A stretch of DNA of 40,392 nucleotides, from positions 1 to 40,392 of IMG/VR virus record IMGVR_UViG_3300037247_002067; one strand, written 5' to 3'. Source of the DNA: a virus. Both the position numbers and the translations under genes were made by a program. Below the pieces are notes generated by a model. That model ran no database searches, was not told the DNA's origin, and worked only from the letters and a program-made list of their open reading frames with translations. Below, piece after piece: positions 3,482 through 18,145 of the stretch (positions within the stretch are counted from its first letter, which is position 1; each line of letters starts with the position of its first letter).

Positions 3482-3756
3482 CACCATCAGAATTAAAATA
3501 CAACGTAGAGCAAGCCGGAACAGCCTCTCATTTTTTTGACCGTAAAACAATGGCTTTTTTTGGGGATACAATGAAGAACTACGGATGCCTTCTCACTACA
3601 ATTACCGGAAGGTCTCATTGCAAAGGGGGGCCAGAAGGCCCCACAGTAGAAGAAGCTGTTTGGGCATTGTACAGAAAAAACCCGGTAAAACACGGATTAC
3701 ATAAGACCGCGTATTTCTCTTGTGATACATTTCGAGTCGTTTTCGCGTTCGAATGA
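3478..3756 (+). CDS. Conserved phage hypothetical protein, 92 aa
   Basis: It starts at an ATGA overlap with the preceding gene, preceded by AAAGGGAGGTGAAGAA. The segment SHFFDRKTMAFFGDTMKNYG resembles a small family common in phage early regions, in which a Phe-Phe-Asp-Arg motif precedes a helix and a beta hairpin. The C-terminal TAYFSCDTFRVVFAFE is a likely strand pair. The function is unknown. Confidence 0.75.
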   Translation: MTPSELKYNVEQAGTASHFFDRKTMAFFGDTMKNYGCLLTTITGRSHCKGGPEGPTVEEAVWALYRKNPVKHGLHKTAYFSCDTFRVVFAFE

Positions 3757-3787
3757 AGTGGAAAGGAAGTAAAAGATAGAAGAAACC

Positions 3788-3973
3788 ATGAAAAAACAAA
3801 TTCGCATGGATACAGTAAGATGTTTTGGTTGTAATAAAACATTTATTGCTATTCCAACCGAAAATAAAATTATATCTTGCAAACATTGCGATCAGCTATT
3901 TATTTATCGTTGTGAAGTGAAGTATTCAAGGTGGGTTAGAATCAAGAGTAATAATGTAATCTGGAAGAAATGA
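3788..3973 (+). CDS. Zinc-ribbon protein, 61 aa
   Basis: Two Cys-x2-Cys knuckles (VRCFGCNKTF and ISCKHCDQLF) about 20 residues apart form a classical zinc ribbon, followed by a basic tail with Trp residues. It resembles Com-like or transcription-factor-type ribbons. A nucleic-acid-binding role is plausible but unproven. The ribosome site is weak. The stop overlaps a possible further short frame at 3970. Confidence 0.7.
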   Translation: MKKQIRMDTVRCFGCNKTFIAIPTENKIISCKHCDQLFIYRCEVKYSRWVRIKSNNVIWKK

Positions 3974-4289: not shown

Positions 4290-4312
4290 GAAAACAAACG
4301 GAGGACCGCGTT

Positions 4313-4426
4313 GTGCGACAAGAATTACGGGAAAACGGATCTCTATGTCCTATTTGTGATTGGGGTTTAATAGAGGACAGTTTAGGGGTATGTGTGGATT
4401 GTTATGAGGAAGGGAAGCCGTTTTGA
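4313..4426 (+). CDS. Minimal zinc ribbon, 37 aa
   Basis: The GTG at 4313 is preceded by GGAGG at 4300-4304. The product has two well-formed knuckles, SLCPICDWG and GVCVDCYEEG, spaced as in a zinc ribbon, and almost nothing else. It follows a duplicated leader whose own ATG (4287) is in another frame. The gene may therefore be a shifted or decayed paralogue of the zinc-finger gene at 2821. Confidence 0.55.
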   Translation: MRQELRENGSLCPICDWGLIEDSLGVCVDCYEEGKPF

Positions 4427-5299: not shown

Positions 5300-5524
5300 A
5301 TGAATATGAAGATGAAAGAAGAATGGAGAGAGAAGGTAGAGGATAGACTTAAGAGGCTTGAGGTTTTTCTAGGAATCTCTTTAATCCCTACGGAATGGAA
5401 TATAACGTTGAAGAAGATAGATAGCATTCAAAGGAGGACGGGATTTTCTTCCTCTTTAATCAGGGGTAAGTTGATTTTAAATAAGGGGATTTGGAAAGAG
5501 GAAGAGGAAGGGAAGAGAGAGTGA
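5300..5524 (+). CDS. Hypothetical helical protein, 74 aa
   Basis: Several in-frame ATGs (5300, 5306, 5312) are possible; 5300 follows a short GGGA. The protein is charged, with a likely helix WREKVEDRLKRLEVFLGISL, and ends in a Lys/Glu run. Its last bases overlap the next gene's GTG (GTGA). The family is not recognised. Confidence 0.55.
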   Translation: MNMKMKEEWREKVEDRLKRLEVFLGISLIPTEWNITLKKIDSIQRRTGFSSSLIRGKLILNKGIWKEEEEGKRE

Positions 5525-5745
5525 ATCTTCCTCCCTTAAAACCCATAAGAGAAGTCCTTCTTCGAAGGGATATTGAGTTAAGGAAGCTACTTTCTTCTCC
5601 CCTCCTTAAAGTTAGAAAGAAGAAGGTTTCATTAAAAGTAGCACTAGAGAAGGCGCTTGATGATAAGGAGTTTTTATCCCTCCTTAAGGAGGGGGGTTTT
5701 TTATGCGAAACGGGTGGGCCTTTCACAATGGAAGATGCAATATAA
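5521..5745 (+). CDS. Hypothetical protein, 74 aa, with a terminator-like hairpin inside its coding sequence
   Basis: GTG 5521 overlaps the preceding stop as GTGA and follows GAGGAAGGG. The protein is Leu/Lys-rich (PLKPIREVLLRRDIELRKLL, then VALEKALDDKEFLSLLK). Codons near the 3' end contain a perfect CCCTCC-TTAA-GGAGGG hairpin followed by six T residues. Part of the transcript may therefore end before the stop codon. The C-terminal 18 residues after the hairpin look less protein-like. No family is recognised. Confidence 0.5.
   Translation: MNLPPLKPIREVLLRRDIELRKLLSSPLLKVRKKKVSLKVALEKALDDKEFLSLLKEGGFLCETGGPFTMEDAI
5678..5702 (+). terminator. Intrinsic terminator or attenuator ahead of the structured RNA
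   Basis: CCCTCC (5678-5683), TTAA and GGAGGG (5688-5693) are followed by GGG and TTTTTT (5697-5702). This is a near-ideal intrinsic terminator, but it lies inside an open frame. It also presents AAGGAGG at ribosome-site distance from the ATG at 5703. It could limit read-through from the small-gene operon into the RNA region. Confidence 0.6.
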
Positions 5746-6768: not shown

Positions 6769-6813
6769 TGAGTAAATATATTGAACAATAACGAACAATC
6801 AACCCAGGAGAAA

Positions 6814-6975
6814 ATGCTTGATAGTAAGGCTCCGGTTGATTCGATGGTTAGCGGGCAAGGGAAATGCAGGTGGATTGTTATTATCAAGGACAGCTATCAA
6901 GCTGCTTGTGGGAAGGTATTTGGATTTTGGCCCAAAAATAATGGGAAAGAATTAGAATCATACGGACGCAGCTAA
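6814..6975 (+). CDS. Hypothetical small protein, 53 aa
   Basis: ATG 6814 has a CCAGGAGAAA ribosome site; an upstream TTG at 6781 in the same frame is less likely. The product contains GKCRWIVIIKDSYQAACGKV, two cysteines about a dozen residues apart around a beta strand, so at most half a metal site. It abuts the next ATG directly (TAAATG). Confidence 0.55.
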   Translation: MLDSKAPVDSMVSGQGKCRWIVIIKDSYQAACGKVFGFWPKNNGKELESYGRS

Positions 6976-7170: not shown

Positions 7171-7522
7171 AGTAAGCGTAACCGTAGGAAGAGGGTCAAC
7201 GAAGAGAGAGTTGGTTAAAGACATCACGATGCCGGAGAGTATTCGAGAAGCAATCGAGGTGGAAGGTGGTAGCGAGGCCGGAGTGGTACTTATGTATCAA
7301 TGTGCGCTAGTTGAGAATACAAGAGAGGTACTAAGGAAGAGTGTGACAATAACGAAGCTTGAGGCCCTTTACAAGCGCACTGTGGAAGCACTTATAGGTG
7401 CTGGTATTAATCAAGAGGAAGCGGAGAAGAGTGCAAAGGAGATAACAGGCTTTCCGGTAGAGAAGAGGGTAAGGAAGAAGAAGGAAGAGGAAGGGAAGAA
7501 AGAGAAGAAGAAGAAGAAGTAA
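7157..7522 (+). CDS. Hypothetical protein with poly-Lys/Glu tail, 121 aa
   Basis: The ribosome site GAGAGGGGGTGAAAAAGG precedes the ATG. Residues 1-60 look like a beta sheet (MIDFKVSVTVGRGSTKREL), residues 60-100 are helical (KLEALYKRTVEALIGAGINQ), and the last 20 residues are a Lys/Glu run ending in six Lys. The basic tail suits nucleic-acid or acidic-partner contact. No family is recognised. A gene-free stretch holding RNA-like elements follows. Confidence 0.65.
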   Translation: MIDFKVSVTVGRGSTKRELVKDITMPESIREAIEVEGGSEAGVVLMYQCALVENTREVLRKSVTITKLEALYKRTVEALIGAGINQEEAEKSAKEITGFPVEKRVRKKKEEEGKKEKKKKK

Positions 7523-7533
7523 AGAACTCAAAG

Positions 7534-7581
7534 TGAGAGTGCGGGGTGACATAAGAGTCCTGAACAAATCCCTGCCTCTTA
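7534..7581 (+). ncRNA. 12-bp hairpin resembling a tRNA acceptor/T-stem, partial paralogue of the next element
   Basis: TGAGAG-t-GCGGGG (7534-7546) pairs with CCCTGCCTCTTA (7570-7581), giving 12 pairs with two G-U and one bulged T, around a 23-nt loop. Its strands resemble the 5' (TGAGAGTGGCGG) and 3' (CCTGCCTCTCAT) ends of the tRNA-like element at 7615-7837, so it looks like a shortened duplicate. It lies in the gene-free stretch 7523-7858. Confidence 0.45.
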
Positions 7582-7614
7582 AAGAAATGTTAATGAATAT
7601 TTATGTTTGGAGAA

Positions 7615-7837
7615 ATGAGAGTGGCGGAATTAGACGCATAAGTACACCACTGCGAAGGCACAGAGTTGATGACTTGAGCTATGATGGAGTGTAAGAACTC
7701 CCTCGCAAAGTTAGGAAAGTTAGCGTTCTCCAGGTTAATCACCGGAATAGTAACTTTTAAAGTCGAGCAAAACTATGGTGTAAAGAGTACTTCCGTGAAG
7801 GAGGGCACTCGTGCAGGTGAAAATCCTGCCTCTCATT
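7615..7837 (+). ncRNA. tRNA(Leu)-like RNA with a large insertion in the anticodon arm
   Basis: The acceptor ATGAGAG (7615-7621) pairs exactly with CTCTCAT (7830-7836). TGGCGGAATT-AGACGC matches the 5' half of bacterial tRNA-Leu except for a missing GGT in the D-loop. The T-stem GCAGG/CCTGC (7813-7817/7825-7829) encloses TGAAAAT instead of the usual TTCRANY. GAGT/ACTC (7785-7788/7807-7810) fits a class-II variable arm. TACACCA (7643-7649) pairs with TGGTGTA (7776-7782), but about 126 nt with further hairpins (e.g. GGAGT/ACTCC, 7686-7701) replace the anticodon loop. T8 follows at 7836-7843. It is either a degenerate intron-bearing tRNA or a tRNA mimic. Confidence 0.55.
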
Positions 7838-7858
7838 TTTTTTGAAGGGGAAGATAGT

Positions 7859-8029
7859 ATGAATGAATGTTTAAATAACTTAAAAGATATACAAGAAAAA
7901 ATTATCCACTTGAATGAGTTGATAAATGAAATGACAGTTTTACAGGGAAAATACATTAATTGTTTATGCTTGAGGATTGATACAGTAATTAAAATAGTAG
8001 AAAAACTTGGGAAGGGTAGTTTAAATTGA
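7859..8029 (+). CDS. Small coiled-coil protein, 56 aa
   Basis: ATG 7859 follows GAAGGGGAAG just after the T-run; the longer frame from 7811 is inside the tRNA-like element. The product is one long amphipathic helix (MNECLNNLKDIQEKIIHLNE, continuing LINEMTVLQGKY) and probably forms a coiled coil. Its stop overlaps TTG 8026 (TTGA). The family is not recognised. Confidence 0.6.
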   Translation: MNECLNNLKDIQEKIIHLNELINEMTVLQGKYINCLCLRIDTVIKIVEKLGKGSLN

Positions 8030-10887: not shown

Positions 10888-11289
10888 ATGGCTTTAATTA
10901 AAATAGATGCATCCTTCACGGACGCGAAGGAATACGCGAAGAAAGAATCAGAACCGATCTCAGAAGGTCCCAGAGAACTGAGAATAACAAAGGCTGATTT
11001 AACTCAGAGTAAGGAGAGCGGTAAGGATATGATAGCCTTTGAACTTACTAGCCAAGGTAATGTTAATCCTGATGATAATAATAAGACACTTTATTACTAT
11101 GGAATGTTACCGGGACAAGGAAGTAGGAAGGGGTATCGATCTTTAGTGGATATTGCTACGGCCGCAGGGGTTGCTTGGACTTCGGATGGGTTGGATACAG
11201 ATGAGTTTATCGGGAAAACCGTCATGGTGAATATTGTCCATGAGATTTATAAAGATAGAGTTAACGGGAAGATAAGCTCGTTTGTTTAA
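10888..11289 (+). CDS. Phage single-stranded-DNA-binding candidate (DUF669-like OB fold), 133 aa
   Basis: The pattern LRITKADLTQSKESGKDMIA, FELTSQG, then LYYYGMLPGQGSRKGYRSLV, then DTDEFIGKTVMVNIVHEIYK is that of DUF669-type phage proteins, which occupy the SSB position in many phage replication modules. Their strand pattern suits an OB fold. The ribosome site is GAAAAGGGGGTG. A terminator-like hairpin follows the stop. The SSB role is inferred from similarity and neighbours (ATPase, nuclease, polymerase). Confidence 0.75.
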   Translation: MALIKIDASFTDAKEYAKKESEPISEGPRELRITKADLTQSKESGKDMIAFELTSQGNVNPDDNNKTLYYYGMLPGQGSRKGYRSLVDIATAAGVAWTSDGLDTDEFIGKTVMVNIVHEIYKDRVNGKISSFV

Positions 11290-17369: not shown

Positions 17370-17913
17370 TGCAAGGGATAGAGGGGCTTCTTTTGAGGGC
17401 ATAAGGGAAGTTGACCTTACTTTTGATTACCTTAATGAGACTAGGAAGTTATTAGAGAAGGAGGGTCATGTAGTTTTCTTTGGCCTTTCAGGTACTTATG
17501 AGGAGAGACATTCTTTCGTTAATGAAAGAATAAAACCGGACCTTTACATAGCCGGTCATGTTAATGCAGGGAGGGGGAGTTATTCTCTTATTGAAGTTGA
17601 TTATAGAGCAAGTGAGAGGACTTTAGAGATAGCGGAGAAGATGCGGGATTCGTTTTTGTTTGAGCTACCTGTGGAGGAAAGTTTTATATGGAAACTTTTT
17701 CGTAAAGGTCACTTTGAACTCACCCCTGCTTTTATAGGCTTTAAGTGTATAAAAGGTGTAAAGTGTTCAGCGCTCTTACTAGAGCCTCTTTTTATTGATA
17801 ATGAAGAACACCTTAATGTTCTTCTTAATGATCCTAAAAGAATAGCTAGAGCTATTGTTAAGGGGATTGAAGATTGGGAAGAAGGAAGAAGAGAAGGGGA
17901 AGGAGAAGGGTAA
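17326..17913 (+). CDS. Endolysin, N-acetylmuramoyl-L-alanine amidase (Amidase_3), 195 aa
   Basis: The fold order matches zinc amidases: VLDIQH with His9, IREVDL with Glu28, ERHSFVNERIKPDLYIAGHV with His78 followed by NAG, and the catalytic-type Glu in ALLLEPLFIDN near residue 152. These would be the zinc ligands (His, Glu, His) and the general acid/base. It cleaves the bond between MurNAc and L-Ala in peptidoglycan. There is no signal peptide, so release through a holin is expected. It is the last gene of the rightward unit; the holin/spanin-like genes lie on the opposite strand just beyond. The C-terminus is a Glu/Gly/Arg run. Confidence 0.88.
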   Translation: MRIVLDIQHINKPHNARDRGASFEGIREVDLTFDYLNETRKLLEKEGHVVFFGLSGTYEERHSFVNERIKPDLYIAGHVNAGRGSYSLIEVDYRASERTLEIAEKMRDSFLFELPVEESFIWKLFRKGHFELTPAFIGFKCIKGVKCSALLLEPLFIDNEEHLNVLLNDPKRIARAIVKGIEDWEEGRREGEGEG

Positions 17914-17945
17914 GGAAGTTCCCTCCCCTCCCCTCCTCTCCTCCC
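17870..17945. other. Purine/pyrimidine mirror tract at the convergent junction
   Basis: A nearly pure purine tract (end of the endolysin gene and its stop) switches at about 17918 to a nearly pure pyrimidine tract reaching the end of the leftward operon. GGGGAAGGAGAAGGG can pair imperfectly with CCCTCCCCTCCCC, so it may act as a two-way terminator, although no U-run follows. Such tracts can also form triplex DNA. Confidence 0.45.
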
Positions 17946-18145
17946 TAATCCTCATCGGGAATATCAAATGTATTCCTTATTAATTTACAAAGCGGAAGAA
18001 CCACTATGTCATCAATTTTATTCGGGGACTTCTCCACAGCCTCCTCAATAACATCAAGAAGTGCATCAACTCCTCTTCTAAGCAACTCCGGCGTTAGCAT
18101 GGAGAAGAGAAGTGGAAGCATTTGAAGCGCAATTTTCTTTATCAT
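17945..18145 (-). CDS. Conserved small phage protein, 66 aa, last gene of the virion unit
   Basis: The site GGAGGTGAATAAAG is strong. A hydrophobic N-terminal helix (IALQMLPLLFSMLTPELL) is followed by an acidic domain with DIVVLPLCKLIRNTFDIPD. This pattern recurs in small proteins near phage lysis genes. It could be a lysis or membrane accessory; no enzymatic motif is seen. The ATG overlaps the stop of the upstream gene (ATGA). Confidence 0.7.
   Translation of the reverse strand: MIKKIALQMLPLLFSMLTPELLRRGVDALLDVIEEAVEKSPNKIDDIVVLPLCKLIRNTFDIPDED

Follow-up and report, generated by a model that had tools for sequence, protein, structure and literature searches.

manA RNA is known from cyanophages and marine phages. 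It entered the literature as a candidate riboswitch of 5′ UTRs (PMC2864571) and has been treated as a cis-regulatory element (PMC2864571, PMC9964418, PMC12197685); in the literature on manA, no description of a tRNA-like nature was found. In phage T4, the species 1 RNA (rnaC) is annotated as a small, stable RNA and lies beside the tRNA genes. The elbow of tRNA is a hold point for RNase P, RNase Z, and the ribosome (PMC4810234). E. coli tRNA-Leu deprived of its anticodon and variable arms is still leucylated; the A73C change or loss of the D/T-loop contacts abolishes leucylation, and A15-U48 also matters (PMC9976931).

The window analyzed here is the whole 40,392-nt stretch of viral DNA (IMG/VR record IMGVR_UViG_3300037247_002067, positions 1 to 40,392). 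It contains a tRNA-like feature and a hairpin just upstream of it, whose elements are as follows.

7534–7581, plus strand: upstream hairpin with ends resembling an acceptor/T-arm module, a possible minihelix paralogue
7615–7836, plus strand: whole tRNA-like RNA, 222 nt, defined by pairing, fold, and descriptor
7615–7621, plus strand: 5′ strand of the acceptor stem, ATGAGAG, pairing 7/7 with 7830–7836
7622–7623, plus strand: U8-G9 joint
7624–7637, plus strand: D-arm GCG-GAATTAGA-CGC, tRNA-Leu-like, without G18G19
7643–7782, plus strand: enlarged domain at the anticodon-arm position (predicted fold), no anticodon loop
7785–7810, plus strand: variable-arm-like hairpin (predicted fold)
7811–7812, plus strand: GU linker, the U corresponding to tRNA U48
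7813–7829, plus strand: T-arm GCAGG-TGAAAAT-CCTGC, 5-bp stem with 5/5 pairs
7830–7836, plus strand: 3′ strand of the acceptor stem, CTCTCAT, followed by a U-run

The preliminary description had reported a tRNA-Leu-like 5′ half, exactly paired acceptor and T-stems, a D-loop lacking GGT, a TGAAAAT T-loop, and a helix enclosing about 126 nt, and all of these were present. The D-stem GCG/CGC is formed by 7624–7626 and 7635–7637, and the D-loop between them has no GG. The helix at the anticodon position consists of UACACCA (7643–7649) and UGGUGUA (7776–7782). The T-loop keeps the U54 and A58 positions and has lost UUC, and the acceptor stem can be extended by A-U pairs with the U-run 3′ of its 3′ strand. 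The RNA is placed between two co-oriented genes in a 337-nt intergenic gap (the upstream stop codon ends at 7522, and the next ATG is at 7860), so that its 3′ end lies 24 nt before the ATG. Folding of 7590–7850 gave z = −2.55, with 1 of 200 shuffles equally stable. A descriptor blind to the D-arm sequence (7/7 acceptor pairs, 5/5 T-stem pairs, U8, U48, and A in the T-loop) scored 7 at this RNA and 2 at the other match in the window; the best score in shuffles was 4. The feature at 7615–7836 is real. At this locus, ARAGORN called no tRNA and the search of Rfam at gathering thresholds, including the tRNA model RF00005, returned nothing. No Rfam tmRNA match was present in the window, and no promoter-like site was found near the RNA.

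Protein searches with the RecB-like nuclease and the terminase revealed no close relatives of the window phage in viral contigs, and blastn of the window region against named phages gave no relatives either. Since no close relative turned up, further members were sought by means of the D-arm signature AGTGGCGGAATNAGACGC, which occurs in 25 stretches in 2.9 million viral contigs, most of them with a paired acceptor stem and T-arm downstream; a looser D-arm pattern gave 105 stretches. An acceptor stem of 7 perfect pairs directly next to a 5-bp T-stem was present in 61 of 120 viral candidates and in 34 of 2400 shuffles (1.4%). Among cellular genome contigs, 0 of 19 occurrences of the signature had this arrangement. 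After removal of duplicates, 52 distinct members remained; their D-arm conservation is partly imposed by the search patterns, which fix most of the D-arm, and the members are not independent. When 16 D-stem sequences were allowed in the pattern, 15 loci came up, every one of them known before and with GCG/CGC, and a T-arm pattern retrieved only two members, both already found. Candidates in coding DNA (L003/L011/L020, L021, L026, and cellular contigs) were rejected, as either the acceptor stem or the T-arm fails.

A covariance model, R1, was built from the family. Each of the 43 member phage records tested contains a significant R1 match, and some contain two to four copies; 20 members match by construction, and a few D-loop variants were picked up later by R1. 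In the window RNA, R1 (7615–7708) misaligns the 3′ half, the insert being too long for the model, and the membership of this RNA therefore rests on the descriptor and not on the end placed by R1. A run of R1 on 299 Pseudomonadota genomes was empty; it counts for little, as only a few first-look candidates were scored per genome. ARAGORN and the Rfam tRNA model miss the family RNAs, as they miss the window RNA. Short-query blastn for the signature against named phages and plasmids was uninformative; its many matches of the phAPEC8 type were set aside, as the T-arm match falls in an unannotated tRNA-like sequence of a tRNA cluster, from which the D-arm signature is absent. In phAPEC8 itself (L149), this sequence lies at about 1448–1530 between tRNA-Asn and tRNA-Thr and has an 8-nt T-loop, TATCGAAT; it is common to many Phapecoctavirus records.

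Family members retain the acceptor stem, which covaries, the U8-G9 joint, a D-arm that is almost fixed and lacks G18G19, the T-arm, and U48, which directly precedes the T-stem and is present in 52/52 members. Acceptor pairs 1–6 each occur as all four Watson-Crick types among the 52 members, and pair 7 is always G-C. In the 20-member alignment, double changes were observed in 11 of 15 tested pairs, 99.3% of cells were paired, and the covariation score was 0.73; shuffles gave 0.16, and sliding of the partner strand gave no more than 0.13. These figures are somewhat inflated by the choice of members for pairing; this bias is insufficient to explain them because the control rate is only 1.4%. UUC is missing from the T-loop of 47 of 52 members, the window RNA included. 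The identity of the variable D-loop base goes with the type of T-loop (Fisher p = 3e-7, uncorrected for shared ancestry), as would be expected if the two loops still touch. An eighth pair of the closing stem (−1 with 73) is found in 40 of 52 members versus 23 expected by composition, and in 21 of 52 the stem runs at least two pairs beyond 7 bp. Position 73 is A in 24 of 52 members, and CCA is seldom encoded. Member length ranges from 68 to 241 nt. Conservation is lowest in the domain between the D- and T-arms, which has no common sequence and cannot be aligned.

When compared with bacterial tRNA-Leu, the family shares the 7-bp acceptor stem, U8, the GCG/CGC D-stem with GGAAU...AGA, U48, the T-arm, and the variable-arm-like hairpin. 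It differs in having no G18G19, mostly no UUC in the T-loop, and no anticodon arm. The acceptor stem and T-arm of a decoding tRNA are in place, and its G18G19/UUC elbow is absent. Instead of a 5-bp anticodon stem with a 7-nt loop, there is the 126-nt domain in the window RNA and a 3-bp stub with 6 nt in the shortest members (68–69 nt). Because the middle varies freely and the smallest members carry only this stub, the comparison points to a non-decoding family and not to decayed or intron-bearing tRNAs. On these grounds the family is, as read from its alignments, a group of non-decoding, tRNA-Leu-derived phage RNAs under selection for the outer frame of tRNA.

Two other known RNAs resemble it in part. 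T4 rnaC is likewise stable, of similar size, located in a tRNA cluster, and built of a tRNA-type T-arm and a large middle domain; it differs in lacking the family D-arm and is missed by R1. T4 rnaD was set aside, its fold giving z = −0.83. As in tmRNA, the acceptor stem and T-arm of the window RNA are joined via a long non-anticodon domain. In contrast to tmRNA, the window RNA has no reading frame, is far shorter, and carries another D-arm.

As to origin, a phage tRNA-Leu gene is the simplest ancestor to assume; in T4, the canonical genes nearest to R1 are tRNA-Leu and tRNA-Ser. L110 (IMG/VR contig 3300044675_004667) has three tRNA-like copies with the same acceptor stem, at 3488–3591, 3712–3820, and 5454–5588. 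Two of them have GG in the D-loop and the T-loop TTCGAAT, and one has no GG and the T-loop TATCGAAT. Judged by these loops, the L110 paralogues show how a tRNA-like elbow (GG with UUC) gave way to the elbow-less form, and the copies provide a natural pair for comparing the elbow change. An additional GG/TTC copy without a normal anticodon arm is present in L056. In L100, by eye, a tRNA-like sequence with a normal T-arm and an enlarged loop at the anticodon position lies upstream of the family RNA at 11077. In L007, a second tRNA-like RNA follows directly downstream, 173–316 nt from the start of the family RNA (in RNA orientation); it has another D-arm (TGGTATAAGCGC) and an acceptor stem that can be extended past 7 bp.

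The hairpin at 7534–7581 had been described as a mini-paralogue of the window RNA. The hairpin itself is well supported, with z = −3.45 for 7531–7584 and 1 of 200 shuffles as stable; paralogy is only suggestive, the family covariance model giving only 4.2 bits. A tRNA-like scaffold in a second RNA island of this phage had also been claimed. This second island was not located; one candidate stretch, 6785–6895, is no more stable than its shuffles (z = −0.66). Elsewhere in the window, a long purine-rich/pyrimidine-rich hairpin with many spurious microRNA matches was noted at 17867–17957, where convergent genes meet. It is probably a terminator.

The genomic surroundings of the members were also compared. 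Neighboring genes are not conserved across the family; the largest cluster of neighbors, of methyltransferase-like proteins (by eye), occurs in 8 phages and at varying distance. The family RNA usually runs in the same direction as the upstream gene, and in 29 of 52 members it shares its orientation with both neighbors. Thirteen members have their nearest downstream gene on the opposite strand, an arrangement ill-suited to a cis element of the downstream gene. In L008, a consensus promoter, TTGACA-17-TATACT, ends 8 nt before the stem, and in L010, TATAAT lies 5 nt before it. Bona fide tRNA genes were found within about 6–11 nt of the family member in L023, L114, and L128. In L102, a DUF3800-VIII RNA (Rfam RF03075, above cut-off; 4303–4368, minus strand) starts a few nucleotides past the 3′ end of the family RNA, and several other members have strong hairpins just downstream.

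We give an even chance to the leading reading, in which the locus encodes a non-decoding tRNA-like RNA, derived from a type II (leucine-type) tRNA gene, that would be a separate, stable, and trans-acting RNA. Such an RNA would be transcribed from a promoter of its own or be released by processing of tRNA clusters or operons. Its trans action would consist in tying up a protein or RNA of the host (or of the phage) that reads the acceptor/D/T core and not the anticodon. The G18G19 of the D-loop and the UUC of the T-loop were lost together, the anticodon and variable arms were replaced by arbitrary structures, and the family is spread over many unrelated phages with no shared neighboring gene. 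The earlier suggestion that a tRNA frame serves here as a decoy or a regulatory RNA agrees with what the family shows: covariation in the acceptor stem and T-arm, a fixed D-arm, and no anticodon arm. A decoy for anticodon nucleases is unlikely because the anticodon arm is absent. With the elbow lost, the family RNA may be poorly recognized by RNase P, RNase Z, and the ribosome. As a partner, leucyl-tRNA synthetase (LeuRS) would be the strongest single candidate, a hypothesis drawn only from published identity elements, those of E. coli tRNA-Leu. Binding without efficient charging would be expected, since U8, A14, A15, and U48 are kept and G18G19 and a fixed A73 are missing.

According to another explanation, the RNA is a cis-acting tRNA-like element of phage operons that brings in RNase P or protects mRNA ends and thereby leads to cutting or stabilization of polycistronic transcripts. 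The position of the window RNA between co-oriented genes, 24 nt before an ATG, and the 29 members co-oriented with both flanks agree with it, and tRNA mimicry is known to recruit RNase P (PMC4810234). We nevertheless find it unlikely. Apart from the 13 members with an opposing downstream gene, the elbow on which RNase P stacks is gone, the stem crosses the expected cleavage site through the −1/73 pair, and such an element has no need for a fixed D-arm.

With permissive settings, manA (RF01745) was the only meaningful Rfam match at the window locus (21.9 bits, E 0.0017). The model aligned full length (1–192) in the window and in the L002, L009, L024, and L075 phages, the match in L009 being weak. 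Along a faster route, which did not report the window's own match, the manA model gave three matches with E < 0.01 in 64 phage records, all on the family RNA: L002 (2e-6), L024 (1e-3), and L075 (2e-8). All manA scores are below the gathering cut-off of 55.2 (window 21.9 bits, relatives at most 32.1), and R1 does not find manA. In both manA and the family, an acceptor-like stem with AG-UG comes first, then a D-arm bearing a GAAUAA motif and a branched middle domain, and after these a hairpin ahead of the T-arm, the T-arm, and the closing stem; some members of each adjoin tRNA genes. They differ in the closing stem of manA, which is 5 bp long and nearly invariant, and in the additional 5′ hairpin, the D-loop insert, and the highly conserved middle that manA possesses; neither the conserved 5′ hairpin nor the conserved middle domain of manA was found in the family. 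By this comparison kinship is no more than likely, since R1 misses manA and manA differs in these several respects.

No member of the family was found in a phage isolate, whereas manA is carried by the cultured cyanophages P-SSM2 and P-SSM4. For comparison, manA RNAs were taken from these two and from viral contigs, giving 98 distinct complete sequences. In 9 of the 98, a tRNA gene lies within 1 kb, and all nine are co-oriented and less than 150 nt away. Seven of the 98 (L151, L170, L183, L214, L246, L256, and L261) have the tRNA gene, mostly tRNA-Asn, 7–18 nt downstream. In these cases manA does not lie in the 5′ UTR of a coding gene, which is at odds with a purely 5′-UTR riboswitch. We tentatively entertain, at somewhat under even chances, the wider proposal that the family is a phage-restricted, widespread class derived from tRNA-Leu, in which the anticodon arm was discarded and the elbow re-made, and that its members would be uncharged mimics directed against a host tRNA-binding factor, manA (a riboswitch candidate since 2010) being the marine branch.

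That the family is instead a manA-type riboswitch, i.e., a metabolite sensor controlling the downstream gene, seems improbable to us. The sub-threshold match and the riboswitch proposal for manA (PMC2864571) would favor it. The family has no common downstream gene, though, and that gene is opposed in 13 members; some manA RNAs are followed by a tRNA gene and not by a coding gene; and the internal domain, the would-be ligand pocket, is the least conserved part of the family.

A tRNA-like RNA that is charged with leucine and donates this amino acid, or enters a reaction of the tmRNA type, is in our estimate quite improbable. The retained U8, A14, A15, and U48 and the independence of E. coli LeuRS from the anticodon and variable arms (PMC9976931) are in line with charging, and one member phage has a tmRNA-like gene close by (L109, 1–231, minus strand, downstream of the family RNA; Rfam tmRNA 34.2 bits, the gene incomplete at the locus end). 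Nevertheless, G18G19, the UUC T-loop, and A73, which E. coli leucylation needs, are lost or not fixed, CCA is rarely present in the gene, and no tag reading frame fits a 68-nt RNA. The stem extension and the variable N73 weaken any charging-linked role.

A decaying tRNA-Leu pseudogene enlarged by insertions would account for the clearly tRNA-Leu-like D-arm and for the T4 genes nearest to R1, yet we regard it as very improbable in view of the strong covariation and the D-arm fixed in dozens of phages; simple decay is excluded because distant members have the same non-decoding design. A functional tRNA with an intron, as the preliminary description had also considered, is hardly credible: the insert does sit at the anticodon-arm position, but no intron family scores at the locus, the inserts share no sequence, and the short members have no restorable anticodon arm.

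A single odd locus has thus led to an RNA family that is defined by a signature and a covariance model and counts dozens of members. The orphan manA RNA can be seen in a new and testable way. The finding also bears on the long-debated role of the stable non-tRNA RNAs produced from phage tRNA clusters, the T4 species 1 and 2 RNAs, and on how phages deal with the tRNA biology of the host when they provide no decoding tRNA.
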